Below are positions 1-59,720 of a DNA stretch of 64,000 bases, piece after piece. This DNA is from Basidiobolus meristosporus CBS 931.73. Its lineage: Eukaryota; Basidiobolomycota; Basidiobolomycetes; Basidiobolales; Basidiobolaceae. Below the pieces are notes generated by a model, which was not told where the DNA came from, searched no databases, and was given only the letters and a program-made list of their open reading frames with translations. Both the position numbers and the translations under genes were made by a program. The first letter of the stretch is position 1. Every line of letters starts with the position of its first letter. The DNA lies in the NCBI GenBank assembly GCA_002104905.1, contig MCFE01000067.1:62001-126000 (forward strand), written 5' to 3'.

Positions 1-173
1 CTAAATTTGACCAAATCACCACCTCTGATAGTCCACCAAAATTGACTACGGCTATCAGCATATTCTTTGATCGAATTGATTACACGCGTTTAGAAAATGG
101 AGTGTTGGAACTAGACAATCAATTTATTGATTCAACCAGCAAATATATACATTATTCTCCATGGAATACATTT

Positions 174-464
174 CTAATTCGAATTGGCCTCCATCCGGGC
201 TTCTCCCTTGACACGGCCAGCCTTTCCTTCAGCTTCCATTTGCTCGTTGCCAATGGCACAGCCAACAGTGTTCTTGACATTGCCCTTAAGCTTCTCGCTG
301 GCACCCTGAGCATACCCTTCGGCCTGGGCTTTTTTGTATTCGACATTCCCTTCGGCTCTTCTGGCCTTGCCTTCAGCTTGCATTTGCTCGTTGCCAATGG
401 CACTGCCTACATTCTCCTTGACGGCACCAGAGGCGGCTTTGACGTTAGCGTTGAACTTGTCCAT
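174..464 (-). CDS. CsbD-like small stress protein, copy 1
   Basis: Encodes 96 residues beginning MDKFNANVKAASG and ending in EANSN. Two tandem CsbD-like units are visible, about residues 10-45 and 58-93, each with the core VG.AIGNEQM.AEGKA. CsbD proteins are small, hydrophilic, stress-associated proteins; fungal relatives are often annotated as mismatched base-pair/cruciform DNA recognition proteins, and the biochemical role is not settled. There is no signal peptide, membrane segment or intron. I chose the internal ATG at 464 rather than the longer open frame to 656, because the other three copies start at the equivalent Met and the upstream region holds promoter-like sequence. It differs from the 806-1096 copy by one residue (Val for Ala in EGNVEYKK) and about ten nucleotides. 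Confidence 0.88.
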   Translation of the reverse strand: MDKFNANVKAASGAVKENVGSAIGNEQMQAEGKARRAEGNVEYKKAQAEGYAQGASEKLKGNVKNTVGCAIGNEQMEAEGKAGRVKGEARMEANSN

Positions 465-805
465 AGTGTTGTTGGATCGGAGTTGATTTGAGGATGTGAG
501 AGTGTAATGATAGTTGAGACTGTCTCGAAGCAATGGTAAATATTTATGGGAAACAATCCCGAAGAATGACGCAGTGGAATCAATCGCGCTTACTCCATCC
601 ATGATGTCACCCTGGTGCTCATTAGCCATATTTGGTAGACAGATAAATTGTTTCATTAGGGTTCACGTACCGGCACATTACCTTGGTTACTAGGTTGCGT
701 CACTTACCATCAAGCGCGAAAGCCATCAATGGTCCGTTTGGTATATATACGCCTGCAATACAACCAGTGCAAACACATTCTAACCAACTCCGATCTAACA
801 ACACT
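465..805. promoter_or_regulatory. Divergent promoter between CsbD copies 1 and 2
   Basis: The 341-bp spacer drives two head-to-head genes. On the copy 2 side there is a TATATATA at 742-749 and TGCGTCA at 696-702. On the copy 1 side (read on the minus strand) there is a CATAAATATTT-type TATA at about 538-550 and TGCGTCA at 567-573. Both CGTCA cores lie about 103-110 bp from their ATG. CGTCA/TGACG is the half-site of CRE/ATF-type bZIP factors; use of that site here is an inference. Confidence 0.55.
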
Positions 806-1096
806 ATGGACAAGTTCAACGCTAACGTCAAAGCCGCCTCTGGTGCCGTCAAGGAGAATGTAGGCAGTGCCATTGGCAACGAGCAAATGCAAGCTGAAGG
901 CAAGGCCAGAAGAGCCGAAGGGAATGCCGAGTACAAAAAGGCCCAGGCCGAAGGGTATGCTCAGGGTGCCAGTGAGAAGCTTAAGGGCAATGTCAAGAAC
1001 ACTGTTGGCTGTGCCATTGGCAACGAGCAAATGGAAGCCGAAGGAAAGGCTGGCCGTGTCAAGGGAGAGGCACGGATGGAAGCTAATTCCAATTAG
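806..1096 (+). CDS. CsbD-like small stress protein, copy 2
   Basis: Encodes 96 residues with the same two CsbD-like units as copy 1 (motifs GNEQMQAEGKA and GNEQMEAEGKA) and is transcribed divergently from it. The ATG at 806 follows a TATATATA at 742-749. The frame stays open upstream to 683 but would run through the TATA region, so the short start is preferred. An AATAAA lies about 50 bp past the stop. The sequence is CpG-rich (I count 12 CG in 291 bp), unlike the transposon region. Probably a soluble, highly charged cytosolic or nuclear protein; the function is inferred from the family only. Confidence 0.9.
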   Translation: MDKFNANVKAASGAVKENVGSAIGNEQMQAEGKARRAEGNAEYKKAQAEGYAQGASEKLKGNVKNTVGCAIGNEQMEAEGKAGRVKGEARMEANSN

Positions 1097-1143
1097 AAGT
1101 GTATATTTTTAAACGTAGTGTATATGGATTACTGACGTAATTA

Positions 1144-1149
1144 AATAAA
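1144..1149 (+). terminator. Poly(A) signal-like AATAAA after CsbD copy 2
   Basis: AATAAA lies 48 bp past the stop codon in a locally AT-rich stretch. It is consistent with 3'-end formation for copy 2. Confidence 0.4.
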
Positions 1150-1632
1150 ACCCTTTATCATTCACAAATTAGATAATGACTTGGTCAGTGCCATTGTGAA
1201 TTACAGGGTTCGTAGTTGTGAATAAGGGCCAGGTTGATGGAAAATTTACAGTTTGTTCCTTGTACTACAGCTAGTTTGCTTGTATGTGTGTAGGGTTACA
1301 ATATTCCTTTCCCTGTCAGAATTTTAAAGCACACCTTTCTATTAAATCCTCGTTCTGGATGCATCTCTCGGATGTTAATTTGTGTGAGGCTACTCCCACC
1401 TTGAGAAAGCTATGTGGTAGTGCCGTAGTACTTTTTTCATTATTCATACAGGTGATAATGATGCACCTGATGTGCCGCACCATATTCTCTGGTAATTATC
1501 GGCTTTCGGTAAAATGCTTGCGAAAAGATGAGTTTGGATACAAGATATTATTAATGTAAAACCGAGTCCTCGGAATACTTAGAATGATAATATAAGGAAT
1601 ATTAGGGCACTTTATTTACATCAGGGGTGGAT
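1150..1632. other. Intergenic, no gene seen
   Basis: AT-rich, unique-looking spacer between CsbD copies 2 and 3. One 91-residue frame (1284-1559) has no recognisable motif or codon signal. I see no repeat shared with the transposon region. Confidence 0.5.
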
Positions 1633-1923
1633 TCAATTGGAGTTGGCGCTCATGCGGGCGTCCCCTTTGGCACGACCTGCCTTGCCCTCAGCCTCCATCT
1701 GCTCATTGCCTACTGCGCTACCGACAGTATCCTTGACGCTGCCCTTGAGCTTCTCACCGGCTCCCTGGGCGTATCCTTCAGCCTGGGCCTTCTTGTACTC
1801 GGCATTGCCCTCGGCTCTGGTGGCCTTGCCTTCAGCTTGCATCTGCTCGTTGCCGAAAGCACTTCCTACGTTTTCCTTGACAGCACCGGTGGCGGACTTG
1901 ATATTAGCGTTGACTTTATCCAT
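1633..1923 (-). CDS. CsbD-like small stress protein, copy 3
   Basis: Encodes 96 residues starting MDKVNANIKSATG. It has two CsbD-like units, the first with SAFGNEQMQAEGKA and the second with SAVGNEQMEAEGKA, and ends in SANSN. It is clearly paralogous to copies 1 and 2 but diverged at scattered positions (Gly-Ala-Gly-Glu-Lys linker, AKGDARM near the end). An in-frame extension to 2007 exists but is not supported by the paralogues. The upstream stretch holds a CATAAATA-type TATA box near 1975-1981 and a CGTCA core at about 2021-2028. No intron and no frame damage, so probably functional. Confidence 0.88.
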   Translation of the reverse strand: MDKVNANIKSATGAVKENVGSAFGNEQMQAEGKATRAEGNAEYKKAQAEGYAQGAGEKLKGSVKDTVGSAVGNEQMEAEGKAGRAKGDARMSANSN

Positions 1924-2030
1924 GTTTGTGGTGAGAGAGGAATGATACGACTTCTGGCTAGTCGGAAGTAGAGTATTTATGTGGTGCAGGATTGGATTGG
2001 TCATCATCGATGAGAGCGCAGTGACGTTCG
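1924..2030 (-). promoter_or_regulatory. Putative promoter of CsbD copy 3
   Basis: On the coding strand it has AACGTCAC (plus-strand 2021-2028) about 100 bp upstream of the ATG and a CATAAATA TATA-like box near 1974-1981. The layout matches the other three copies. Confidence 0.5.
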
Positions 2031-2727
2031 ATTTGAGTTAGTTCACGTGAAATTGGTCACCTCAGGTAGGAATTCCATCCTAATCATCTTCCATTTACTA
2101 GGTGGGGATCTAATGGATGATCGAATGCTGAAGTTTGAACGATAATCTGATCAACGTTATCCAGTGTATGTACCAGCTGTAGATTTGTGGTTACAGGGAC
2201 GGGAGCAATATGGGTGAAACGCTACTTTACCTGTAACAATGAGAATATATAACTGATGTTGCATATTTGTTTACACTTTTAATTGGTCGGCTTTGTGAAC
2301 ATCTTTAAATGTGAAATATGTAGGGAACCAAGATGGCTAATTTACTTACTGTTTGGAGTTTGCCCTCATACAAACATCTCCTTTGGCATATTTGCTCATT
2401 GGCTACTCACTACTAACGCGGTTGATAGTTGGTTGTCTAACGTAAAATGACGTTTGATAGAGGAAATTCATTTAATGCTCAGATTCTTGACGTCAGCATG
2501 GAAAAATCGGGTTACTATCTGTCTGAATGCTGGATTAGTCGCATGGATTAATTTTATTCCACTTTCGTAATGATTCCCCAATAAATCGCTATGTATATAT
2601 ACATTTAGCTCAGTAAGAATCAGTGTCTGGTGACAAACTACGTGTAAACCAAATCTTGCACACAACCCGTAGCAAACTTGTTGGGAATTCTCAGAAACAG
2701 TTTATTTACAACACTTGAAAGGGTCGT
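2031..2727. other. Intergenic, no gene seen
   Basis: Spacer between CsbD copies 3 and 4. I see no domain-bearing frame and no copy of the mobile elements found further right. Confidence 0.5.
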
Positions 2728-3015
2728 TTATGAGTTAGCACCCATGCGGGCATCTCCTTTGGCATGACCAGCTTTGCCCTCGGCCTGCATTTGCTCATTG
2801 CCGATGGCACTGCCTACAGTGTCCTTCACATTTCCCTTCAGCTTCTCACCAGCTCCCTGCGCGTATCCTTCAGCTTGGGCTTTCTTATATTCAGCATTAC
2901 CCTCGGTTCTGGTGGCCTTGCCTTCAGCTTGCATCTGCTCGTTTCCAAATGCACTTCCTACGTTTTCCTTGACGGCTCCGGAGGCGGACTTGAGATTGGC
3001 ATTGATTTTATCCAT
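2728..3015 (-). CDS. CsbD-like small stress protein, copy 4
   Basis: Encodes 95 residues starting MDKINANLKSASG, with two CsbD-like units and ending GANS, one residue shorter than its paralogues. It is closest to copy 3 (shared SAFGNEQM, AGEKLKG and AKGDARM). The ATG at 3015 is preceded on its own strand by TATATAAAAG-like sequence about 70 bp upstream and by a CGTCA core about 115 bp upstream. The frame is intact and CpG-rich. It is the last recognisable cellular gene before the repeat compartment that starts near 3480. The function is inferred from the domain only. Confidence 0.87.
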   Translation of the reverse strand: MDKINANLKSASGAVKENVGSAFGNEQMQAEGKATRTEGNAEYKKAQAEGYAQGAGEKLKGNVKDTVGSAIGNEQMQAEGKAGHAKGDARMGANS

Positions 3016-3138
3016 GGTTAAGTTAGTATGAAGTACTCAGAGTAAGAGTGGGTTATTTGATCCCTCACAGCCGGTCGTAGACTTTTATATAGTGATGTGC
3101 TTGATGGGTCATCAGTGATGACTGTTAAGTGACGTTTG
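3016..3138 (-). promoter_or_regulatory. Putative promoter of CsbD copy 4
   Basis: On the coding strand it has AAACGTCAC (plus-strand about 3129-3137) and CTATATAAAAG (3082-3092) ahead of the ATG at 3015. The order and spacing are the same as at the other copies. Confidence 0.5.
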
Positions 3139-31462: not shown

Positions 31463-31774
31463 TTAATCCTGTACTACAAATATGCTGGCTTCATCCCAGA
31501 TTATCTTGTTGATATCTTCATCCACCTCATTAGGCATGGCCTGGTCCTCCAAATAAGTTGGTAATAGGCTAGGCCAATCCAATTCATGCACCAAGTTGAG
31601 TTGTGCAACTTGTTCTAATCTTGATAAGGTGTCAGCAACCATGTTGTTTTTCCCAGGGCAGCAGATAATATCCAAATCAAATTGCTGAATGTATTCACTC
31701 CATCTTGTCATTCTTCTAGAGAGTACCTTCTGAGTAAATATATACTTGAGGGAGACATGATCAGTCTTCACCAT
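31463..31774 (-). pseudogene. gypsy-1 RNase H, second half
   Basis: KTDHVSLKYIFTQKVLSRRM then WSEYIQQFDLDIICCPGKNN and VADTLSR, the typical end of gypsy RNase H. The first half lies at 32846-33100, on the far side of X1. Confidence 0.75.
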
Positions 31775-32845
31775 TGTGGTTATGTATAGGTCCAAGGGAG
31801 AGATATGTCCAACAACTCTCAAGTGTTATGTGTGTTGGGTGTTCACTGGGTGCAATAGCCTCTGGCAAAAGCTTGCTAGGAATACCTGGGTTCTGTGTCT
31901 AATCTGATGTGAAGGGGAATAAAGCCACAAGCTTGTCAAGGGAAAACTATTGAGCTACAATCCCCAACTTAGTTGGTGTCTTAACAAAAGTATGTGCTGG
32001 GCTCAGCGTCCTCTGAGAAGACAATATACTAAAGCTTCCAGAGTCAAAACAACTGTAAACTTCACCAGCAGGGACTAGATAAGAATGCAGCTGTGGTCAA
32101 TAGTTAGAAAGACAGAAAAGTATCTTTGTCTGTACAAGAACAAACTTGGGAAAGAATCAAATATGATAAAAGATACCTACTCTGAGTATTCCTCACAAGT
32201 AGTCCCTCCAAGGTCAGTTGGCTGTCAGCATGGTTTCCTGGGAGTGTCCTGTGGTCTGGGGTTGGAAGTTCAGGTGGCAGCAGGTAGTAGTGAGCACACT
32301 GATCAACAAGTTAGAATATTGACAAAAGGGATGATGGTTTATTGTTGAGGGATAGCCTCCCTTATATACTTTTCTTACTGGCTAAGTGATTACTAATCAT
32401 GGTGTTCCAGAAGGTTCTGGATATCAATAGAAATCTTAATGACATCAGAATGACCTAAGAATGTTCTAAGTAGGTGCTGCAAGGTTCTAAGAGGCACAGC
32501 ACATCCAACCAATCAGGAATTAGTATTCTGATACATGTGTAACATAGGGATACTGTATCTGGTATGGAAATGGTAGGGATGGTGATGCAGGTTGATCATG
32601 TGTCACAGGTACTGGTGTGGGTACTTGCCCAATATAGAAGCACTTATAGCTAGTAATCTTACAAAAAGTGAGGGGTAACTTATGCAATAAGGTAAGCAGG
32701 TGTGATAGTCAACTGGCTTATGGGATAGTACTGATCAGGTAAGACAAATGGGATGAAACTAAAATAAGTGTAGTAGAGATGAAGGGAAGTAGAAAATAGG
32801 GAAATGAGCACATCTGTCAGGGGGTGTCACTGTCACACCACTACA
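31775..32845 (-). mobile_element. LTR-X copy X1 (solo LTR) inside gypsy-1 RNase H
   Basis: 1071-bp element with no coding frame of its own, TG...CA ends (TGTGGTTATG...CCACTACA on the plus strand) and the 4-bp duplication CCAT at 31771-31774 and 32846-32849. It splits a continuous RNase H. Three other copies are in the window; all look like LTRs without an internal region. Confidence 0.78.
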
Positions 32846-43185: not shown

Positions 43186-45170
43186 TATCCAAATTCATTG
43201 CTATAGTCCCCATACCAAGCCTCAACTCATCATTAGTACAACCCAGACAAAACCCATCCCCCAGCTCACAAGCGTGGTCCAGACCAGAAAAGTCAATGTT
43301 GGATCTGTTTGAGTTCTTGCCAAATGATTTTAGTATGGCCCAAGTGTCTATGATGAGCCTTCATACAGATATTTGGGCACTACTGACTAATCTAGCAGAA
43401 CCAGATACCTCAGAGAGTTGACAAAGATGGAAGAATCTGAGTAGAAAGCTGTGGCATGAGTTCTACATCAAGATGCCAGCCAATGTATGTAAGAAGATAT
43501 ATAACAATACAAGTATTGAAATCAAGAATGAGCTGAGAGTGAGGGGATTTGAAAAAGTAGCCACGCGGGAAAAATTTGCACGCAATTTGCACCGTATGGG
43601 CTGGACGCATCCATTTGTGCCTCAACTTTGGGAACCAAGGAGATTTTGAATGAGTTTTTGCCTTGAATGACTAATGTACTATGTGATATATTAGTAGAGC
43701 CAAGTGGTTTACAAGAGCAATATACACAGGACTCATCCAGGCAACAGATCCAAAGTATCAGACACAGGGTAAGTGAATACCTTGAGGAATCAGACAGTGA
43801 GCTTCAGGAGGAAGAATACAGACCGCAAGCAACATCTTCCAGATTGCCCCAGCATGCCTTGCTGGATTCCCTACCATCTCTTACAACCACAGCATGCCAG
43901 CACATGTCAGTCCAGACCATGCCAACACCCTTTACCAGAATGCCCGGCATTGAGTCAACGTGCGCACTTCAGAGCAAAACTACAAGAACTAGCCAAACTG
44001 GTCATTTAGACACAAGTCCATTGGAGCAGACCAAGTCGCATCAACATGCAGCATCACATCAAACTCAGCCAAGGGCCATCTCAACGTGTCAAGGTGCGCC
44101 TGCGTGTGCCATTTTGCCTGACCATCAGCAAGTTACTTCTGGTGAACTGACTGATGATGACCAACAGGAAGTGCCTCAACCACCAGAGCCCTTGGCAAGT
44201 AAAAGTACGCGTTGGCATGTGGCACTACAGGCCGGTTCAGTCAGTTCAGTTGGAGCAATTCAGCGTGGCCAAGCTGCAGCACTGCACTCATCAACTAGGA
44301 GGCAAAATACTAGATTTGTTCCGTTGGATAGTGCCACATTGAGCCATAAGTGCCAAATGATGCCATAGTGTGCCAGAGAGGCCAAATGAGCCTCTACCTG
44401 GCCACAGAGTGTGAAACATAGCTCTGCATCTTCATACAAATCAGCCCCTGTGTTTCACCCATTGTGTTGGAGAAAATCCATTTTTTGACCTTTTTTTTGG
44501 ATTAATTTTGTGCAGGATGTGTTAGAGCACAAGCAGATTGAAGATATGCATCTGGTACTCAATACCCATGGCACTCTGAATCTAGCTCCTATAGCTTGTA
44601 TCATGTCACAAAAATGAATGGCACTATCTTGGTCCACTGGTACTATCTGGCACTATAAGTGCTTTTTATAGATCTTACTTTAGGGCTAATATTTAAATAT
44701 AGTGCCAGGTAGTAGCAGTGGACCAAGATAGTGCCATTCATTTTTGTGACATGATACAAGCTATAGGAGCTAGATTCAGAGTGCCATGGGTATTGAGTAC
44801 CAGATGCATATCTTCAGTTCTCCTGTGCTCTTACACATCCTGAGCTACATTGATCCACAAAAAAAGGTCAAAAAATGGATTTTCTTCTGCACAATGGGTG
44901 AAACACAGGGGCTGCTTTGCATGAAGATGCGGAGCTATGTTTCACACTCTGTGGCCAAGTATAGGCTCATTTGACCTCTCTGGCACACTATGGCATCATT
45001 TGGCACTCATGGCTCAATGTGGCACTATCCAATGGAACAAGTCTACTGACTACAAATACACAAGTAGCCAAGATGATAGTCAGCCAGGAAGTAGTATAGG
45101 TGTGCAAAGTGAGTCAATACCAAATGCTTCAGTAGTAGTCCCTGTGAGAAAAAAACCCAGGAGAAGATGA
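43186..45170 (+). pseudogene. Second gene of element H (unknown, Ser/Gln/Pro-rich), split by foldback
   Basis: Not recognised. A frame from about 43186 gives a Pro/Ser/Gln-rich start, then MLDLFEFLPNDFSMAQVSMM, one stop, and a basic helical stretch KLWHEFYIKMPANVCKKIYN ... FEKVATREKFARNLHRMGW to a stop at 43648. After a frame change, a 233-residue frame opens (43667-44368): acidic EESDSELQEEEY, then Ser/Thr/Gln/His-rich. The foldback element at 44312-45044 interrupts it. Beyond, the same frame continues at 45048 (TDYKYTSSQDD...) to a stop at 45170 after a basic tail KKPRRR, likely a nuclear localisation signal. By position it could be the DNA-binding partner of the transposase; no Myb motif is obvious. 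Confidence 0.55.
44312..45044. mobile_element. 733-bp palindromic foldback MITE, TSD ACT
   Basis: Arms at about 44312-44660 and 44697-45044 are near-perfect inverted copies around a spacer of about 36 bp. Ends AGATTTGTTCCGTTGGAT and CCAATGGAACAAGTCT match the element H terminus; ACT is duplicated at 44309-44311 and 45045-45047. It has no gene of its own; open frames inside (such as 44455-44637) mirror each other. Single strands could fold into a hairpin of about 350 bp. Confidence 0.88.
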
Positions 45171-45916: not shown

Positions 45917-46582
45917 ACATATCCAGCTCATCCAGTCTTTTCATTTGTATTGTTGCACATGTGTATGTATTTTAATCAGAGCCTGTGAGAAGTACTTAGG
46001 GTAGCGGATACTCTGTAATATATTGCCAATTCTTTCAAGTTTCTTGGTTATCTCAAAGGGCTCATTTAGCTTGAAATGCCCCATGTAAAACTTAGTAATC
46101 AGTATAGGGATATTGCTGAAAAGCAAATGTACTGCTCCCAGTGGGAAGCTTTTGCTCCAACAGATACCCTCTATCTTTAGTATCTCTGGTTTCCAATTGA
46201 TTCCATATTCTGGCCAATGGCCTATAGCTTGCCAACTTTGCTGCTACTGCATGCTTACTTCTGTATGCTCTCTCCATAGAAAGATGATGTTCTTAGTGCT
46301 GGTGTTTGGGTAATAATGATGTATGTATATTATAGAGTAAATCCCCTGGATCTCACACATTTGACAGCAATACCATCCATTGATGCAATGGTAGCATTTT
46401 TGGATATGAATGCCATGCAACTTTTAATGCATGCTGGAATCAGGACAGTCTCTGGATCAAATGTTGCCAGCCACATGATGGTTGACCACTTGTACCATGT
46501 ATATGGTAAGTGGCATCCCAGTATGATTTTGATAAGAAGTAGTAATAAATCCTCAAAGCCCCCATTACTGATTTTAGTGGAA
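45917..46582 (-). pseudogene. Element G ORF2, middle part with internal deletion
   Basis: Continues G ORF2 from 41775. The Tnp2 core (GDTPAISKI..SGHN segment), about 540 bp in C and K, is missing: sequence matching the post-core segment ends at 46385 and sequence matching the pre-core segment starts at 46386. The transposase is therefore catalytically dead. Confidence 0.62.
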
Positions 46583-46586
46583 ACAC

Positions 46587-47655
46587 TGTGGTGGTGTATA
46601 AGTCCAAGGGAGAGATATGTCCAACACTTCTCAAGTGTTATGTGTGTGGGGTTTCACTGGGTGCAATAACCTCTGCCAAAAGCTTGCTAGGAATACCTGG
46701 GCTCTGTCTCTAATCTAATGTGATGGGGAATAAAGCCACAAGCTTGTCAAGGGAAAACTATTGAGCTACAATCCCCAACTTAGTTGGTGTCTTAACAAAA
46801 GTATGTGCTGGGTTCAGTGTCCTTTAAGATGACAATGTACTAAAGCTTCCAAAGTCAAAACAACTGTAAACTCCACCAGCAGGGACTTGATAAGAATGCA
46901 GCTGTAGTCAGTAGCTACAAAGACAGAAAAATATCTTTGCCTGTACAAGAACAAACTTGGGAAAGAATGAAATATTATAAAAGATACCTACTCTGAGTAT
47001 TCCTCACAAGTAGTGCCTCAAAGGTTAATTGGCTGTCAGCATGGTTTCCTGGGAGTGTCCTGTGGTCTGGGGTTGGAAGTTCAGGTAGCAGCAGGTAGCA
47101 GTGATCACACTAATCAACAAGTTGGTATATTAATAAAAGGGGTGATGATTTATTGTTGAGGGATAGCCTCCCTTATATACTTTTCTTACTGCCTAAGTGA
47201 TTACTAATTGTGCTGTTCCAGAGGTTCTAGAGATCAATAGAAATCTTAATGACATCAGAATGACCTAGGAGTATCCTAAGTAGGTGCCAGAAGGTTCTAA
47301 GAGGCGCAGCACATCCAACCAATCAGGAATCAGTATGATGAAGCCTGTGTAACATAGGGATACCATAATTGGTATGAGAATGATGAGGATAGTGACACAG
47401 GTTGATCATGTGTCTTGGGTACTGGCACAGGTACTTGCCTAATAAAGACGTACTTACAGCTAGTAATCTAACATAACGTGAGGGATAACTTATGCAATAA
47501 GGTAAGTAGGTGAGAGAGTCAATTGGCTTATGGGACAGTACTGATCAGGTAAGACAAATGGGATAAAACTAAAATAAGTGTAGTAGAGATATAGGGAAGT
47601 AGGAAATATGGGAATGAGCACAACTGTAAGTGGGTATTACTGTGACCCCACTACT
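46587..47655 (-). mobile_element. LTR-X copy X2 in element G ORF2, TSD ACAC
   Basis: 1069 bp, TGTGGTGGTGTATAAGTCC to CCCCACTACT, with ACAC at 46583-46586 and 47656-47659. The flanks rejoin at the same length as the uninterrupted site in element K (59140-59160). Contains a TATA box and poly(A)-signal-like sequence on the minus strand, as in X3. Confidence 0.78.
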
Positions 47656-47659
47656 ACAC

Positions 47660-48220
47660 ACCACTTTGCTAGCCACAACATTACATCATTTACCAATAGA
47701 TGGGTTACTGAGCTCACTTGGCTCCATAAAGTATCCTTGGCATTTGTTTCAATGGGTGTTGTCTCCTTGCATATACGGATTTGACCAAGCTCATAAATGG
47801 TACTGTTATTAGGGGAGATAGGCTCAAAATCCATCAGTGGACCTTCTTTGTCAGAGCTATCACTCTGTGTGCTATATTCAGAAGGCTGAGGTGAGCCTAA
47901 GGGCATTACAAACTCACCTGACTCATTTTGTGCAAGGTGATAAAGATGGCCAGGTCCCAATATAGAAGTGTCAACTGGCTGGCAAGATAATGTTGGGACA
48001 GTGGTGACCAATGAATTGTCAAATATGACTTGGGTGGCAAAACACTGGCCATGATCTTTGTAATACTTCCTATGCTGTCAGCATGCTTTGTGGCTGAGAG
48101 GCTTGCCACAATAGTCACATGGTCTTTTTTCTCTTCTCTTATGGTGTTGAGTCAAAATAGTCTTGTCCATGGGGAAAACAGTTTGACCTTCAACAATGTA
48201 ACTCTATTACATCACTTTTA
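47660..48220 (-). pseudogene. Element G ORF2, N-terminal part
   Basis: Reads 48220 to 47660: zinc-finger zone, then PVDTSILGPGHLYHLAQNES and MPLGSPQPSEYSTQSDSSDK (47637-48011), the conserved N-terminal region of this transposase family, also at 57090-57419. Interrupted by X2. Confidence 0.65.
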
Positions 48221-48392
48221 GGCCAATACTCATGCGAACTTAAGACAGTCTTGTATTTGAGACATTGCACCTACATGAATGTAAGATTCAATGATGACCT
48301 GCCATAGTAAACACTATAAATATGATTATGATACCACATATACATGTCTATGTAACACTATTTCCCCTTTGGTTTTACTCACTTCCATATAT
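48221..48392. promoter_or_regulatory. Divergent promoter of element G
   Basis: Spacer with the conserved leader CTATTTCCCCTTTGG and AT-rich TATA-like stretches, between ORF2 (minus) and ORF1 (plus). Confidence 0.4.
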
Positions 48393-50460
48393 ATGCTGCC
48401 AAAAAATAAAGCAAAGTTGTCTGGTTCTCAACCAAACCCCACTGCTGATGGCAACAGAAGTACGGTTTGACAACAGCTTGCTTTGACATTCAGTGTAACA
48501 AGCATGGCTACATCCAAAACAGGCCCTGTGGACAGTGTGCCCATTGAAGGTAATAATGCGGACTCCTCAGGCTCTCAGTCAAGCAGGTAATTGAGAGCCT
48601 CTGCAGAGCCACAAGCTGACCATTATGCTCATGCAGATGAGAATGTAGCAAATGCAGTACCCTCAGTTGAAGATCAGCAAGTGGTCATGATAACATCACC
48701 ACCACAAATGTTAGCAAGTATGTTGTCAGCTCATACCAAAGAATTAATGAAATAATTAGGTGAAGTGGCTGATTGGATAGATGCAATGGCCCAGAGAAAT
48801 CAGGAAATAGTCCTGAAACAGGATGAGTGAATAATATGTGTAGAACAATCAATATCCCAGGTAGAGAAAGCAGTATCTTTGCTGCAAAGAAGGAACTCAG
48901 GCAGCTCAATGTCACAGCCAAGAATTGAGTCATTTTCTGATGTAACAGTAGAGGAACACCATAAAGTCTTTGAAGCAGAGCAACAGTGCCCAAAGATAAA
49001 GCCCACAGAAGAACCTATCACAGTGTGGGAGGGAGACAATGTGGTGTAAATACCAAAGCCTAAAAATCAAAAGACACTGAAGATCTGTGAAGCTGTTGAG
49101 TGCAATAATGAAGAGTGGGCTAATATACAAGAGGCCATAAGAAGTCTAGCATGCCATCACCTTTAGGCTGGCATACCATGGGACCATCAGGAACTCAAGG
49201 CCAAGCAGAATGCACTCAACTTGTTCTATGAGCATTATCCTGGATTCAAATGGGTAAAAGATCTTGGGCCAGCATTGGTACGCTATGAAAGTATCTCAAG
49301 AATAGCAGAAACTATCAAAGGCAGAAGAACAATGGTGCCATGGCTAAAAACCAGCAGCTTGCTCAAGAGCCTGTTACGAGCAGGGCCAAAAGCTCCTGAC
49401 AAGTGTCAAAGAGATGTCAGGCAGCTGGAAGAGTGCCAATTAGGGACTAGCAGGTAGACATGAATGCACCAGCACAACATTTATCAAGGAAAATGCATAG
49501 TACCACTCAAGAAGCACCCAGTGAAAGTAGTAGAGAAGGACCTGGCAGTGATAAAAACCAGTCACATTTACATGAGCCCATCACAACTACAGTTGAGAGC
49601 TTGAAACAAGCTGAAAAGAAACATCAGGTTGCCAGAAGAGTGCCAGCAAGGGACAAGAAGGCCAAAACAGATGTTTCATAGCAGAATTTATCCTGGAGAA
49701 AACGTAGTTCTTTACAAGAAGCACTTAAACAAAGTAGTGGTGATAGACCAAGCAGTGATAAAGGAAAAGGTAAAGGGAAAAATGTCTACCCAAGCCTGAG
49801 ACAGGGAGGCATGCAAAAAAAACTGCAGTCTTGCCAAGTAACACCACAAGCCAGGAACAGACTGAGTCCCATCATAGCCAACAAGAAAACAGCTGTTCTC
49901 ACAAGAGTTGGAAGCGCAGCCAGTTGAGCTATACTCCAGCAAGGTAGATAAGTTTGCTGAAAAAGGCAACTTGTCTACCACAGCATCCACAGCCTCCACA
50001 GTTTCCATTGTTGACAGAGTGGAGATCCCACTGACAGATAAGGCTACAATGTCAAGAGCCTGAAAGACTATCACAATGCCTACAGCAGAGTTTTGGAACA
50101 TTAATTGGCACACCAATAGGCTGCAGAACTTCTTCAAGAGCAGTGCTCAAGACAATGCACTGGAATATTGCAAGGATTAATTGCAAAGACTGGTGGATGA
50201 GGAGCTAGACCTTGCAGTTCTGGCTGAAGACCAGGATGTGTGGGAACCAGTGAATGAACGGTGGCATATAGCCATTGGGTTCCCGCCAAAGTCATGGAAC
50301 CAGTGCATTACAGCAGAGATACATATGGAGTGGTGGATTTAAATGGAGTTACTTGTTGAGTGTGGGGTTGGGCTTAATGTTAGTGTAGGGTATTGGGACT
50401 TGTATAGGTCAATACAATTGGCAATTGAGGTACAACTGAAGCTTCAACAGAAATAAATCA
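48393..50460 (+). pseudogene. Tnp2-element ORF1, element G
   Basis: Starts MLPKNKAKLSGSQPNP. The N-terminal Ser/Thr-rich region, coiled coil (EQSISQVEKAVSLLQRR near 48840-48890), core HEHYPGFKW at 49221, and C-terminal block near 50080-50240 (LEYCKD, VDEELDLAV) are all present but spread over different frames with stops. The 3' untranslated region ends at the terminus at 50787. Function unknown. Confidence 0.6.
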
Positions 50461-50787
50461 ATTTGTATTCATGAAAAGTAAGAGAAATGGTTGAGTCAGG
50501 AAGTAAGGGGTATGAAAAAGAGGCAATAGCCAACCAATTCACACAAATGTAGGAGGCAATAGAGTGTCTGGGATCAGAAAGTGAGCAATTTAGCAGGGAA
50601 CCAATCAAAAGCCACTTATACATTGTTGCAATGAAAAATTTGGACCAAGTTTTTTCTAAAATCTGGTGTGCAATTATTTTTCAATGGTCTCTTGACAGTT
50701 TCCTGATGAGATCAGTACTTCCTAGTCATGGGACTTCAACTTTGTGGCAGCCTTTTGACGGGAACATCTCAATAATCTTTCATATGG

Positions 50788-50867
50788 TATAAATAAACAA
50801 CAGTTCAACTATTATCACTATTGCTTAAAAAGTTCCTTATATTCAAATCACTTTTTAAATTACAACA
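50788..50867 (+). repeat. copia solo LTR (C3), right part
   Basis: TATAAATAAACAACAGTTC... to TTACAACA matches the last 80 bp of the copia-1 LTR (20560-20640). Confidence 0.7.
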
Positions 50868-51282
50868 GATTACTAGATTTAAGTGGTTATATTTCAGGCA
50901 AGTATCTGTACTGGTTCCTGTGATACAACCCCTGAACCAAGTTGCCATCCCTAACACTTCATCTAGATATGTTATCCCCATGCTATTCTGGTTGTAGAAT
51001 ACTGATCCCTGATTAGTTGGATGGGCTGTGCCTTCTGGAACCTTCCAGCCAATACTTGAATACACTTAGCTCATTTTGATGTTATTGATATTTTAACTGA
51101 TCTCCAGAACCTTGTAGAACTCCATGATTGGTAATCACTTAACCAGTGAGAAACATATATCAGGGAGACACTGCCTTGGTAATATATCATCTTACCTTTT
51201 ATTTGTAATCCAGTTTGTTGATTATTGCAATAACCTTTAAGAAGTGCTGGACAAATATTTCCTTAAAGTACACCCCACTACA
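50868..51282 (+). mobile_element. LTR-X copy X4, right part
   Basis: GATTACTAGATTTAAGTGG... aligns with X3 from about 55490, with an internal deletion. It ends CACCCCACTACA. Element E ORF2 continues at 51283-51287 in the register expected after a 4-bp duplication (CTAT/CATT, degenerate). Confidence 0.62.
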
Positions 51283-52010
51283 CATTCATTGATGTGAGGA
51301 GCTGGCATATGAAGGACACCCAGGAAAAGCTGGAAAACACTGAGGACAGATATGCACATGGAGACACCCTTGCCTTTGGCATTAAGAAGCCAAGCAGTCT
51401 CAGTGTGTTTGTAATCAGTTAAATTATACATGGTTAAGTTGGATGCAAAAAGAAACCAATTTTTGTTAGGACATGTTTGCCAGAGTATGATGAGTTATCT
51501 TGAGTACAAGACAATTTCTACACCGGTCAATATGAGATTTATACTAAAAAGAACCAGAGTACACCTATCAGGGGGCCTAGAGTCCATCAGGGAGAAGAAT
51601 TATGTTGGCCAAGTATCAAAAAGTATTTTGCCAATATTCAAGGGGTACTTATAGCTTAAGTGGTACCAAAGTGGTGCCAACTAAGCATATGCTTGCAACA
51701 TGCATATACACTCAGCAATACAAGGGAAACAAGAATTTTGCAAGTATCACAACAAAATGTCATAAAGTTCAGGTGATACAAGTGTGTTAGTTGCAGCAGT
51801 AATGAATATATGTAGAGGTTAGTGAGCAGGAAGCCATATATTTCTGATTTAGACTCTATGTGAAATACCTATGGTAGTAGTGGGTGACTAAGGAAGAGGG
51901 GCAATTCTACAGCAGAATAAATGAGTAGTACATTGGGGCATAGGATCAGGAACTTCCATTTGGTAAATTGGTATGGTAGCATTATACAAGAATAGCTGCA
52001 TGCCACTATC
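51283..52010 (+). pseudogene. Element E ORF2, C-terminal end
   Basis: Matches D at 14610-15330: ELAYEGHPGKAGKH-type frame with stops; coding-frame traces MKDTQEKLENTEDR and FGIKKPSS. Loses similarity near 52010. Confidence 0.6.
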
Positions 52011-52150
52011 TTGGGCAATAATTCCAAGAGATGTTGGTATTGTATAGAATTTGTATTTCACCTAAATATTCACCTAGATTGTTCACTTATATTATTACCT
52101 ACAGGACTTAGAGATTACGGGCCAATCTCCTTGTCAGGAATTACCCAGAA

Positions 52151-52514
52151 TATTCTCACCAAAACATCATTTACCCAGAACATGAAATTCTCAATGCTCT
52201 CCAAACAGCCCCAAACCTTGTACACATGCTCTTAGGACCTTCCCAAACATTTTCTACATGCTTGTTGTGCCAATACTATGCCAATATATAAATACTACTT
52301 TTACATTCAATATATGATTCAGTGAAAACAACATAATCTAGTTTTTCTCCCAATCACTTTCATTATCTCCAAGACTTTAAAAACCAGTTATGAGCTCTTG
52401 GCTTTGACTGTCCTCAATATGTACCACATCTATTGCTGGTACTTTCCCTCAGCTGAGATGTTAAATGGATCCTGATCCTCAGCTGTTGCTGAGGCATATG
52501 CTTGTAAGATGTAT
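52151..52514 (+). mobile_element. copia LTR (C4) with primer site and gag start, relic
   Basis: LTR 52151-52385 (235 bp) aligns with 63457-63692. Primer site GTTATGAGCTC follows, then a gag start homologous to 63697 onward (PSAEMLNGS-like). Truncated at 52514 by element I. The 52011-52150 stretch to its left has no clear identity. Confidence 0.65.
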
Positions 52515-53072
52515 AGACTTGTTCCATTGGATAGTGCCACATAGTGCCAGCATATTAAAAGTGGCTGATTAAACTGGCACTCTGTGGCACTATCTGGTGC
52601 TCTGATTTTTACTATGATGCCAGTGGCAGGATATAGCTACTGAATTGCCTTAGATATCCAAATGTAAGCTCTACTCTCACTCAGAAGTGATTAAATATCT
52701 TATTGTCAAGCCTCTGCTTCCTGCTATGCCCACCATTCCTGGGCTTGCCATGAGCTCTGATAAACTCAGATCTCTAACAATCCTCTCCTACATAAGATAA
52801 GTCTACCATGCATTTAGCCTTTCTCCCAAATTTTGGATGATTCTCTCCCCAGAGTGCTTTGTCATTCCTAATTTCAGCAAATGGCCCACTAAATCTGATG
52901 ATGTTACCCTCAGTGTCAGACAGTACTTGAAACCTCACACAGTGTGCCTTGTATTTGCCAGAATAAAAGTGCATCCGCCCTCTAGAAAACCTGTTAATCC
53001 TGACTGTGAAGGTATCCAATATATTCCTGGTATGGAACTTGTTGGTGAACATGCTGGGAAACAAAAATCCAA
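52515..53072 (-). mobile_element. Harbinger-like element I, truncated
   Basis: Left end AGACTTGTTCCATTGGATAG is the family terminus. The transposase remnant on the minus strand (52774-53064) keeps ILDTFTVRINRFSRGRMHFY and FSGPFAEIRNDKALW (His-Asp changed to Asn-Asp). A deletion near 52640 removes the C-terminal catalytic Glu. Cut off on the right by element J at 53073. Confidence 0.68.
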
Positions 53073-53599
53073 CCCTATAAGAAGTTATTGTGATGACGCC
53101 ATCATAAGGCCATCACAAATTCTAAGCCCTGTGACTAAGACATATTGATCCTATCAGGACACCATGCAAAGACCATCAAAAAATAATTTCTCCACAGATT
53201 TCACAAGAAACTAGGTCAAAGTTTCTCATCACAACAATACAAAGTGGCTTTTGACTGATTCTCTGCCAATGTTCTCACTCTCTGATCCCAGATACTCTAT
53301 CACCTCTTATGTTTGTGTACAATGATAGGCTATTGCCTCTTTCACACTTGTTACTTCCTGACTCAACCATTTCTCTACTTTTCATGCATAAATATTGATT
53401 TATTTCCATTGAAACTTCAGTTGTACCACAATTGCCAGTTGTATTGCCCTTTACAAGTCCCCTTACCGTACACTAACATTAAGCCCAACCCCACACTCAA
53501 CAAGTATCTCCACTAAAGTCCACCACTAAATAAGTATTTCCACTCTAATGCTCTGTTTTTGTACCTTTGACAGGAACCCTACAGCTGTATGCTACTGTT

Positions 53600-55302
53600 C
53601 ATTCACTGGTGCTCATATGTCTTGGTCTTCAGCTGGCACTGCAAGCTCTAGCACCTCATTTGCTAGTCTTTGTAATAGATCCTTGCAATAATCAAGTGTA
53701 TTTTCTTGAGTACTGCTCTTGAAGAAGTGCTGCAACCTCTTGACCTGCCTAATAATGCTCCAAATTTCCACCAAACGCAATGTGATAACCTTTGGAGCTC
53801 TTGACATTGCTACTTTGTGTGTTGGTGAGATCTTCACTCTTTCCACAATGTATGATATGGAGACTGTGATAGACAAGTTGCCTATCTCTGCAAACTCATC
53901 CACCTCACAGGAGTATGGCTTAACTGGCTGCGCTTCCAACTCTTGTGAATACTGCTGTTTTCTTGGTGGTGATTCTTCCTGGCTATGATTGAATTCAGTC
54001 TGTTCCAGGCTTATGGCATCAATTGGCAAGAACTGCAGTTTTTTGCATGCTTCCCTGTCTCAGGCATGCATAGACAAAGTAGTAGTGAAAAACCTAGCAG
54101 TGATAATGGAAATGGTAAAGGGAAAAATGTCTAAGTACTTCTTGTATTGAACTGTGTTTTCTCCTTGATAAATGCTGCACTGATGCATTTATTTTGGCCC
54201 ACTTGTCCCTTAATGGCACTCTGTGGGCAACCTAATGCTTCTTTCCCACTTGTTTTGAGCTCTCAGCCTATGCTGTGAAGGGCTCCTGAGGTTGCTGCTT
54301 GTTCTTATCACTGCCAGGTCCATCACTGCTACTATGACTGAGTGCTTCTTGAGTGAAACTATGCTTTTTCTGTAGGAAATATTGAGCAGGTGCATCTCTG
54401 TCTGCCTGCTTTTCCTGTGTTGCCACTCTTGTAGCTACCTGATGTCTCTCTGACACTTGTTTGGAGCTTTTGGCCCTGCTTGTAATGGGCTGTTGAGGAA
54501 GCCTCTGCTTCTTAGCCAGTGCACCCTTGCTCTTCTGCCTTTGAAAGTTTCTGCTATTCTTGAGAAACCTTCTTGGCATACTAATGCTGGCCTAGAATTA
54601 ATTTGCTTGTTTGAATTCTGGACAATGCTCATGGAGCAAGTCAAGCACATTCTGCTTGGCCTTAAGTTGCCAGTGGGCCCATGGTATGCTGGCCTTAAGG
54701 TGTAGGTGTGCTAGACTTCCAAAAGCCTGTTGATGATCAGCCCACTCTTCATCATTGCACTCAATGACTTAACAGATCTTTGATGTCTTATGATTCTTAG
54801 TTGTTGGTATGAATACAACATTTTCTCCCTCCCATTCTGTGATAGGTGTTTTTGTGGGCTTTATCTTTGGGTGCTGTTGTAGTGCTTCAAAGACTGTATG
54901 GTGCTCTTCTGTTGTTACATCAGTAAGTGGCTCAAATGTTGGCTGTGATATTGAGCTACTTGAGTTCCTTCTTTACAGCAAAGATACTGATTTCTCTACC
55001 TGGGATATTGATTGCTCTACACTTTGTAGCTACTCATCCTGTTTCTGGACTATTTCCCAATTTCTCTGTGCCATTGCATCTATCCAATCAGCCACTGCAC
55101 CTGATTGCCACATTAATGCTTTGGTATGAGCTGACAACATACTTGCTAATATTGGTGGTGGTGATGTTATAATGGCCACTTACTGATCTTCAACTGAGGG
55201 TACTGTGTTAGCTACATTCACATATGCCTGAACATAACAGTCAGCTTGTGGCTCTGCAGAGGTTCTCAATTGCCTACTTGACTGAGAGCTTGAGGAGTCC
55301 GC
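53600..55302 (-). pseudogene. Tnp2-element ORF1, element J, main part
   Basis: Read leftward: coiled coil and middle region (54809-55129 antisense zone), core ARKQMCLTCSMSI...RRFLKNSRNFQRQK (54268-54650), Ser-rich linker, and an unusually well kept C-terminal frame of 138 residues at 53613-54029: MPIDAISLEQTEFNHSQEES, then EIWSIIRQVKRLQHFFKSS, LDYCKDLLQRLANEVLELAV. The N-terminal end lies across X3 at 56574-56742. Confidence 0.62.
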
Positions 55303-56573
55303 TGTAGTGGGGTGACAGTGACACCCACTGACAGATGTGCTCATTCCCATATTTTTTTATGTCCCTATATCTCTACTATGCTTATTTTAGTTTTATCCCA
55401 TTTGTCTTACCTGATCAGTACTATCCCATAAGCCAGTTGACTATCACACCTGCTTACCTTATTGCATAAGTTACCCCTCACTTTATGTAAGATTAATAGC
55501 TATAAGTGCTTCTATATTGGGCAAGTACCCACACCAGTACCTGTGACACATGATCAACCCATGTCACCATCCCAACCATTTTCATCCCATATATGGTATC
55601 CCTATGTTTCACAGGTTTCAGAATACTGATTCCTGATTGGTTGGATGTGCTCTGCCTCTTAGAACCTTCCAGCACCTACTTAGAACATTCTTAGGTCATT
55701 CTGATGTCATTAAGACTTCTATTGATATCTGGAACCTTCTGGAACACCATGATTAGTAATCACTTAGCCAGTAAGAAAAGTATATAAGGGAGGCTATCCC
55801 TCAACAATAAATCATCATCCCTTTTATCAATATACTGACTTGTTGATTAGTGTGATCACTGCTACCTACTGCTACCTGAACTTCCAGCCCCAGACCACAG
55901 GACACTCCCAGGAAACCGCACTGACAGCTAACTGACCATAGAGGCACTACTTGTGAGGAATACTCAGAGTAGGTATCTTTTATTATATTTGATTCTTTCC
56001 CCAGCTTGTTCTTGTACAGGCAAAGATATTTTTCTGTCTTTGTAGCTACTGACTACAGCTGCATTCTTATCAAGTCCCTGCTGGTGGAGTTTACAGTTGT
56101 TTTGACTTTGGAAGCTTTAGTACATTGTCATCTTAAAGGACACTGAACCCAGCACATACTTTTGTTAAGACACCAACTAAGTTGGGGATTGTAGCTCAAT
56201 AGTTTTCCCTTGACAAGCTTGTGGCTTTATTCCCCATCACATTAGATTAGAGACAGAGCCCAGGTATTCCTAGCAAGCTTTTGGCAGAGGTTATTGCACC
56301 CAGTGAAACCCCACACACATAACACTTGAGAAGTGTTGGACATATCTCTCCCTTGGACTTATACACCACCACAGTGTTTCCACTAAAATCAGTAATGGGG
56401 GCTTTGAGGATTTATTACTACTTCTTATCAAAATCATACTGGGATGCCACTTACCATATACATGGTACAAGTGGTCAACCATCATGTGGCTGGCAACATT
56501 TGATCCAGAGACTGTCCTGATTCCAGCATGCATTAAAAGTTGCATGGCATTCATATCCAAAAATGCTACCACA
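55303..56573 (+). mobile_element. LTR-X copy X3 carrying a transduced Tnp2 fragment
   Basis: LTR-X at 55303-56373 in forward orientation (TGTAGTGGGGTGACAG..., TATATAAGG at 55781-55789, AATAAA at 55806-55811, ...ACACCACCACA), followed without a break by about 200 bp identical to element G ORF2 next to X2 (46386-46586), ending ATGCTACCACA. The whole 1271-bp block is flanked by CCGC (55299-55302) and CCAC (56574-56577), and element J ORF1 joins across it. Confidence 0.75.
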
Positions 56574-56742
56574 CCACATTACTACCTTTAATGGGCACAC
56601 TGTCCACTGGGCCTTTTTTAGATGTAGCCCTGCTTATTGCACTGAATTTCAAAGCAAGCTGTTGTCCAACCATTCTTCTGTTGCTGCCAGCAGTGGGGTT
56701 TGGTTGAGAACCAGACAACTTTGCTTTATTTTTTGGCAGCAT
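56574..56742 (-). pseudogene. Element J ORF1, N-terminal part
   Basis: Starts at 56742 with MLPKNKAKLSGSQPNPTAGS, then VGQQLALKFSAISRATSKKG and VDSVPIKG. Interrupted by X3. The start is set by agreement with elements B, G and K. Confidence 0.65.
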
Positions 56743-56939: not shown

Positions 56940-58520
56940 TGTTGAAGGTCAAACTGTTTGCCCCATGGACAAGACTATTTTGACTCAACACCATAAGAGA
57001 AGAGAAAAAAGACCATGTGACTATTGTGGCAAGCCTCTCAGCAATGAAGCATGCAGATAGCATAGGAAGTACTACAAGGACCTCAGCCAGTGTTTGCCAC
57101 CCACGTCATATTTGACCATTCATTGGTCACTACTGTACCAACATTATCTTGCCGGCCAGTTGATACTTCTACATCAGCACCTGGCCATCTTTGTCACCTT
57201 GTGCAAACTGAGTCAGGTGAGTTTGTGATGCCTTTAGGCTCACCTCAGCCATCTGAATATGGCACACAGAGCAATAGCTCTGACAAAGAAGGTTCACTGT
57301 TGTATTTTGAGCCTATCTCCTCAACAACAGTACCATGTATGAGCCTTGTCGAATCCCTATATGCAATGAGACACCACATGTTGAAACCAATGCCAAGGAC
57401 ACTTTATGGAGCCAAGTGAACCTAGTAACCCATCTACTGGTGAATGATGTAATGTTGTGGCTAGAGAAGTGGCATGTTTCCACTAACATCAGTAATGGGG
57501 GCTTTGAGGATTTACTACTACTGCTTGCTAAATCATCCCTGCATGCCACTTACCATGCATATGGTATAGATGGACAACCATCATGCAGCTGGTAACATAT
57601 GACCTAGGAACCATCCTGATATCAGCATGTGTTAACAATTACATGGCATTCACATCAGAAATACCACTATTGCAAGGTGTCCAACTTGTCAGGAATCCAC
57701 CACCATTGGGCAAAACATTGTTCACACTCTGATTATATATTCTGGTAGTACCCTGTCTAAAGAAGCTATGCAGTCCAACAAATATTGTGAAGCTATAAAG
57801 TACTGCACCCGGCATCAATTGAGTGCAAATATACCCAAATTATTTGATAGCAAACATTACAAACAGCTAAGAGGCAGGGGCTACTTGGAAGGTATGTATC
57901 ACCATGCCTTTGCCTTAGCACTTGATTGAATCTCATTAAACAAGTACACTACCAGCATATCCTGCTGGCTGCTGACTCTCATCAACCTGAATTTGCTGCC
58001 AATCTTATGGTATCAGAGCAGCTCTCTGATGGTAGTCTTACTGGTATCTGGGCCTAAATCACTGTCCAACTTGGAGAGCTACCTGTATCCTTTGCTGTAT
58101 GAATTTGTATGCTTTCCTGCAGGATAATGTTAAGTTGCCATTATGTCAAAGTGCATATTATTATCTGCATAAGAGATACCCCAGCCATCAGCAAGATAGC
58201 TGGCTTCTCTGGGAACAATAGATTGTATTGCTGTCAAATGTGTTAGATCCAGGGGACTTAATCCATAACTCACACACATTATTATTACCCAAGCACCTAT
58301 ACTACAAACATCATCTTTCTGTAAAGTGAATGTAAAGAAGACAGCATGCAATTGCAGCAAAGTTGGTAAGCTATAAGCCATTGGCTGGAATATGGAATTA
58401 ACTGGAGAGCAGAGATACTTAAGATAGAGGGAGTCTGTTGGAGCAAAAGCTTTTCACTGGGAGCAATGCATTTGCATTTTAACAATATCCCTATACTGAT
58501 GACCAAGCTGTACATGGTGC
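56940..58520 (+). pseudogene. Tnp2-type transposase (ORF2), element J
   Basis: Zinc-finger-like start MDKTILTQHHKRREKRPC followed by DYCGKPLSNEAC (about 56965-57050). N-terminal domain VPTLSCRPVDTSTSAPGHL and VMPLGSPQPSEYGTQSNSS (57090-57300), EPCRIPICNETPHVE (57335-57390), and Tnp2 core traces near 57950-58230 (NLMVSEQLS, IICIRDTPAISKIAGFSG). Truncated at 58520 before the C-terminal domain. Several stops. Confidence 0.68.
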
Positions 58521-59720
58521 ATACAAAATTATCTGGCAATGGATATAGGTAGCTATCCAGGTTGGGCAGTGATTTAGGCCCACATACCAGTGAAACCACC
58601 ATCAGATTTCTACACTGATACCATAAGATAGGTGGTAGATTCAGGTTGATGAGAATCAGTGGCCAGCAGGATTTGGCAGTAGAGTACTTGTTTAATGAGA
58701 ATATATCAAGTGCTAAGGCAAAGGCATGGTCATACATACCTTCAAATTGGCCCTTGTTTCTTAGCTGTTTAAAATGTTTGCCATCAAATATCTGATATGT
58801 TAACACTTGATTGATAGTGAATGCAGCACTTTATAGCTACACAATATTTGCTGGACTGCATGAGCTTCTTTATACAGGGTATTGCTGGAATATATCTGGA
58901 GTGTAAACAATGCTTTCCCCCAATGGTTGTGAATTCCTGCCAAGCTGGACACCTGCAATAGTGGCATTTTCTGATATGAGCACCATGCAACTGTTAACGC
59001 ATGCTAGTATCAGGATGGCTCCTGGATTATATATTGCTAGCTGCATGATGGTTGCTTACTTATACCATGTACATGGTAAGTTTCATCCTGGGATAATTTT
59101 GGCACAAAGTAGTAAATCCTCAAAGCCCCCATTACTGATATCAGTGGAAATGCACCACTTCTCTTGCCACAACATTGCATCATTAACCAGTAGATGGATT
59201 ACTGTGCTCACTTGACTCCATATAGCATTCTTGACATTTTTTCCGCAAGTGCTTTCTCATTGCATAATGGGATCTTGCTGGGCTCATGCAGGGTACTGTT
59301 GCTAGGGAAGATAGGCTCATAATCCATCAGTGAGCCTGCTTCTTCAGAGCTATTACTCAGTGTGCCATATTCAGATGGCTGGGGTGAGCCTATAGGTGTC
59401 ACAAACTCACCTGACTCAGTTTGCGCAAGTTGATAAGTATGAGCAGATGCTGTTATAGAAGTATCAAGTGGCTAGCAAGATATTGTTAGTGTAGTAGTGA
59501 CTGGTGAATGGTCAAATAAGACTTGTATGGCAAAACACTGGCTGTGAACCTTGTAATACTTCTTATGCTGTATGCATGCTTCATGGCTGAGAGGCTTGCT
59601 ACCATAGTCACATAGTCATATTTCTCTTCTCTTATGGTGTTGAATCAGAGTAGTCTTATCCCTTGGGCAAACAGTTTGACATTCAACAACATAATGCTAT
59701 TATATTACATTTTTGGCAAT
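58521..59720 (-). pseudogene. Tnp2-type transposase (ORF2), element K
   Basis: Reads 59720 to 58521. Zinc-finger zone near 59580-59680; N-terminal SPQPSEYGTLSNSSEEAGSL (59208-59402); then a 169-residue frame 58297-58806 starting before the core: HAFALALDIFSLNKYSTAKS, WPLILINLNLPPILWYQ, NLMVVSLVCGPKSLPNLDSY. These are classic Tnp2 signatures. Beyond 58521 that frame runs into element J antisense sequence, so its end is an artefact. Confidence 0.7.

Follow-up and report, generated by a model that had tools for sequence, protein, structure and literature searches.

The window, by which we mean the whole 64-kb stretch of DNA analysed here, is part of an 89-Mb assembly of 1311 contigs and lies on a contig of 188 kb. 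The region of interest is a nest in which the DNA element G and LTR retrotransposons are present in old copies. Remains of a tnp2-type transposase are present in the window, and one of the G copies contains a Transposase_21 match (58297-58806). At one end of the window there is a CsbD-like gene (174-656), near which a segment of about 300 bp occurs in several inverted and direct copies (166-3016). Together, this gene and the transposase remains are suggestive of a fungal genome. Three near-full-length copies of one LTR family, LTR-X, lie within the window, namely X1 (31772-32845, minus strand), X2 (46587-47655, minus strand) and X3 (55303-56573, plus strand). X2 and X3 are inverted relative to each other and 7,647 bp apart (47655 to 55303).

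LTR-X is a genuine LTR. We counted 53 distinct near-full-length copies out of 76 loci in the assembly; these loci are the best matches, which biases the census toward young copies. A primer-binding-site-like sequence, TATTTGGCACCC, follows the LTR in 6 of the 53 copies and a purine-tract-like sequence, GAGGGGGGTGGA, precedes it in 14, where both are named from position and likeness and not from a tRNA match. Pairs of LTR-X copies in the same direction and about 6.1 kb apart (for example C680, 78022 and 84126) suggest that full-length elements are present. One of these contains, within a stretch of 2.2 kb, an open piece of 733 amino acids with RVT_1 followed by RT_RNaseH_2, and this order of reverse transcriptase and then RNase H, as read from one copy, points to an element of the Ty3/gypsy type.

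The remaining 33 copies are solo-like. A flush 4-bp target duplication is found in 31 of these, exact in 22 (including X2) and differing only by transitions in the other 9, as is expected of CpG decay. All 31 duplications read NCGN or its transition forms, and so the LTR-X integrase seems to favour a central CpG. Only X3 and L038 have no matching flush duplication. L038 (C350) is a solo X LTR whose flanks are unlike (CCAG/GTGC), about 1.15 kb of G being absent between them, which fits a deletion by recombination between two X insertions within one G copy. Solo LTRs that form between elements in this way and carry mismatched target duplications are a familiar kind. X3 resembles L038 in its unlike flanks, but differs in retaining an outer duplication of its own and in containing inserted DNA.

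X2 is a solo LTR of 1069 bp. If its first base is read as a T-to-A change, the target duplication ACAC stands flush on both sides (46583-46586 and 47656-47659). Neither a primer-binding site nor a purine tract is found beside it. X3 is composed of a 1071-bp solo LTR and 200 bp of extra DNA. Starting from the left, it has the target duplication CCGC (55299-55302), 703 bp of native LTR (55303-56005) and then the 368-bp 3' part of the LTR (56006-56373), which ends in ACCACA (56368-56373). Where the element should stop, it goes on with the extra DNA (56374-56573), namely GTGT (56374-56377), which is a copy of the target duplication of X2, 194 bp of the G element that hosts X2 (56378-56571, identical to 46389-46582), and a final CA. 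The composite thus has TG...CA ends, and it is followed by CCAC (56574-56577), which we read as a CpG-decayed CCGC. The uninterrupted insertion site of X3 can be seen in a sister G copy at 48558-48561. The ends and the unlike 4-bp flanks are as described in the original prediction, which had seen in X3 an LTR-X joined to about 200 bp of the neighbour of X2.

When X3 (55303-56573) is aligned to X2 (47654-46389), identity is distributed as a mosaic. The first 703 bp hold 82 differing positions (11.7%), and the following 566 bp (56006-56571 against 46954-46389, which we call tract A) hold none. This contrast between a near-identical shared part and a diverged remainder had been predicted, and the pairwise alignment bears it out. 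If the differences were placed at random, the chance of all 82 falling in the first 703 of the 1071 LTR positions would be about 10^-15.7. The window yielded 67 self-alignments of at least 300 bp, and the longest exact run in any of the others is 130 bp. The identity of tract A stops abruptly on both sides. The native 703 bp of X3 have no non-self match above 95% among the 40 matches scored out of 2236 candidates in the assembly, which marks X3 as an old element in which the 3' part alone is recent. The native LTR part of X3 has a median divergence of 5.7% from 28 young copies (its first 20 bp left out); the shared part is at 4.1% and the native part of X2 at 9.2%.

The extra DNA can be traced to the X2 locus, since it opens with the target duplication of X2 and continues with the DNA that hosts X2. 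In addition, the matching duplications that flank X2 show that the piece of G is native there. The opposite direction, from X3 to X2, was considered and set aside. Raw divergence from the young copies weakly favoured X3 as the donor, but in windows along the LTR the excess of X2 ends about 250 bp before the tract, and values of 3.4-5.6% are already reached from 55751 on. The divergence test therefore does not decide the direction, and it is the duplications on both sides of X2 that place the G piece. The relatives of the native 5' parts of X2 and X3 offered no subfamily that settles the direction either; among the 40 matches scored for each they lie at 91-95%, save for self matches and a few short or divergent pieces. 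The first 450 bp or so of X2 (approximately 47206-47655) are 7.9-13.5% from the young copies and its later part 3.4-5.6%, as would be the case for a mosaic X2 or for one with a U3 from another subfamily.

Other loci were also considered as donors. L003 (C705) reaches 91% over the full composite, but it represents a separate X insertion about 16 bp off in a different G copy and has a duplication of its own (CCAC/CCGC). L045 and L046 have an X inserted at roughly the position in G that X2 occupies, and there G continues past the end of the tract; over the 311-bp piece that spans the composite junction they reach only 87% and 86%, so neither is a recent donor. Among the 40 candidates scored for this piece, 100% identity is found only at X3 itself and at X2 (302 of 311), and no other copy of the LTR and G composite was seen. 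The search for further LTR-X copies with extra flanking DNA, suggested as a check on the original prediction, hence gave no composite to place beside X3 among these 40. The plasmid collection contained no match.

The closing junction (56568-56573) reads ACCACA. It had been proposed that the new end, ATGCTACCACA, shares this hexamer with the true LTR end and that it is a plausible switch point. The sharing is as stated, and the place does appear to be the point of switching back at the LTR terminus, but the microhomology is limited to the 4 bp ACCA, common to the G piece and the LTR terminus, because X2 continues ACCATTGCA; the final CA belongs to the original LTR end. With the LTR counted as it now stands, the original 3' part of X3 being lost, ACCA occurs at three places in the last 368 bp, two of them within the last 9 bp, and it occurs at three places in the 300 bp that follow X3.

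The X2 and X3 loci share a second near-identical tract, tract B, which lies in plain host DNA. It runs from 48093 to 48310 (plus strand) in the G copy that hosts X2 and from 57042 to 56825 (minus strand) in the one that hosts X3, where it begins 252 bp to the right of X3. There are 3 differences in its 218 bp, compared with about 13% outside it (55/430 before the tract and 15/113 in 48449-48561). The width of 218 bp was picked after the data had been seen. None of 5000 permutations reached 3 differences in 218 bp, and the best 150-bp and 250-bp windows were matched in 2 of 5000 and 3 of 2000, respectively. In 22 control comparisons of either copy with 11 others, the minimum ranged from 11 to 24 differences in 218 bp. 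A cluster of 11 differences is seen at 48311-48348 in the X2-host copy, inside an otherwise near-identical stretch. Near-identity resumes after it, but this further stretch is partly conserved in another G copy, and so only the 218 bp are counted. When all 67 local pairs are scanned for tracts with at most three differences, the two longest (587 and 218 bp) are both at the X2 and X3 loci. Judged by its pattern of differences, tract B looks conversion-like, and with it the two loci appear to exchange sequence in place.

Our preferred explanation, to which we give a probability of about 80%, is in-place repair of an old solo LTR with X2 as the template, in which the copying overran into the flank of X2 and the repair was closed by microhomology. 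X3 would have begun as an ordinary solo LTR belonging to a Ty3/gypsy-type element, with CCGC as its target duplication, and the duplication that flanks it today is most simply that of this original insertion. Much later a break would have occurred at or near its 3' end. We infer that the broken LTR end invaded the inverted LTR of X2, 7.6 kb away, and that the last 368 bp of that LTR were copied, followed by 198 bp of flank, made up of the target duplication and 194 bp of G. Once released, the new strand would have had no homology left to anneal with, and it may then have been joined through ACCA to the surviving tip of the X3 LTR (ACCACA) and its target duplication. Seen this way, a template switch with X2 as the source and with host DNA carried along, as the original prediction had it, holds up well; a recent composite cDNA does not, given the age of the 5' 703 bp.

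The alternatives in which X3 is a mobile LTR composite must be weighed against this history, and we find them unlikely. Reverse transcriptase could have switched between an X-family RNA and a read-through RNA of X2, and the hybrid, ending in TG...ACCACA, could have entered the X3 site, giving rise to a 4-bp duplication. The TG...CA ends, the duplication flush to the composite and the resemblance of ACCACA to a true LTR end are all in its favour. Under reinsertion the junction would fall on the LTR terminus automatically, whereas under repair its exact position there is partly a coincidence, which the ACC-rich end of the LTR eases but does not remove. However, a recent template-switched cDNA would match its donors throughout. 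The 5' 703 bp are old and have no donor above 95% among 40 scored matches, so a donor missing from the assembly would be needed, and no second composite was seen among the 40 candidates scored for it. Moreover, the source lies just 7.6 kb away, a proximity that random insertion in 89 Mb would give in about 2 of 10,000 cases if target preference is ignored, and tract B links these two loci in plain host DNA as well. Reverse transcription of an LTR element also requires a primer-binding site and a purine tract, and X2 has neither alongside. For these reasons the claim of a composite that travelled as one piece and inserted anew is not upheld, and we see very little chance for a recent mobilisation of this kind. 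It also seems quite improbable to us that 200 bp of host DNA were packaged together with a lone LTR, underwent reverse transcription with a template switch, and entered the genome as one unit, with an ACCACA-like end of the host serving as a substitute terminus. An account in two stages, where an old composite was inserted by an unusual route and later homogenised with X2 through ordinary gene conversion, accommodates an old 5' part next to an identical 3' part, and accounts for the join on the LTR end. It requires two events, the first of which has no other example among the 40 scored candidates, and we regard it as unlikely.

Other alternatives leave X3 in place. A replication fork that switched template from X3 to X2 and back (FoSTeS/MMBIR) would need no double-strand break. 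Inverted neighbours and microhomology at the point of return are in keeping with it, and it predicts an identical outcome, which sequence alone cannot separate from break repair. The first switch, though, lies within long homology, a position that favours recombination, and the fork explanation appears highly improbable. We think it equally far-fetched that a false path or a chimeric read in the assembly placed X2 sequence in X3. Identical stretches of 566 bp within a single repeat-rich contig do invite such a suspicion, but the return junction is only 4 bp, assemblers work with overlaps far longer than that, and both flanks of X3 run on normally in the 188-kb contig. Segmental duplication was rejected. 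Its expected signs, uniform divergence and homology continuing beyond the ends of the block, are both absent, with divergence of 0 and 11.7% inside the block and flanks that are non-collinear parts of G.

A further aspect of the X2 locus may bear on how the copying ended. The G copy that hosts X2 has a deletion scar (46382-46384), about 5 bp past the end of tract A, where some 540 bp of G are missing. The missing stretch is present in three of the four other aligned G copies, and the fourth has most of its later part. G continues just past the end of the tract in 9 of 10 further copies, all of them pattern matches. A simple repair model leaves the closeness of the scar to the tract end unexplained. 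One reading is that X2 was broken at the scar as well, in which case copying would have run off a broken template, the last bases would have been trimmed back at the microhomology, and X2 would have been rejoined with a deletion. A long inverted repeat at 44311-45045, whose nested arms measure 187 nt (94%) and 177 nt (90%) with a spacing of 40 nt between the inner arms, lies about 1.3 kb from the scar and is a possible fragile site.

X3 is a clear case of natural gene conversion between LTRs that carried host DNA along, and this is a known kind of event. Three features of a non-canonical termination of homologous recombination are found in it, with a break in the recipient as the presumed trigger. 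The tract starts in shared homology (703 bp of diverged, aligned LTR give way to 368 bp of identical LTR), copying enters donor DNA that was absent from the recipient (GTGT and 194 bp), and microhomology (ACCA) is seen at the second end. Three reports offer comparisons. In reporter products with this type of termination, long-tract gene conversion was found to be closed by microhomology or added bases (PMC5104497). As in X3, copying begins in homology, moves on into DNA that the second end lacks, and is closed after part of that end has been lost. That system, however, relies on an induced break in mouse cells and has tracts of several kilobases, whereas X3 is natural, has a tract of 566 bp and involves two LTRs of a fungus. 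A set of 824 closely linked human duplications (at most 619 bp in the proximal class) carries hallmarks of synthesis-dependent strand annealing (PMC2671141). Short size, close linkage and microhomology at the breakpoint are shared with X3, but the proximal class has its donor within 5 kb, where X2 and X3 are 7,647 bp apart, and one side of X3 starts in shared LTR homology. Finally, potential gene-converted regions have been predicted in 25% of plant LTR pairs, with a disturbing effect on LTR dating (PMC7251063). Conversion within LTRs is common to both cases, but X2 and X3 are two solo LTRs at different loci, and host DNA was carried along. Among titles and the openings of abstracts, we recognised no description of a solo LTR that moves with flanking host DNA.

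The X2 scar beside the tract end would provide a handle on whether donor and recipient broke together. More generally, in-place repair between neighbouring solo LTRs can mimic a mobilised composite, including its TG...CA ends and target duplications. Tracts of this kind mislead the dating of LTRs as well as claims that host sequence has been transduced. The check that reveals them is to look for the target duplication of another copy inside the element, which is simple and can be applied genome-wide.
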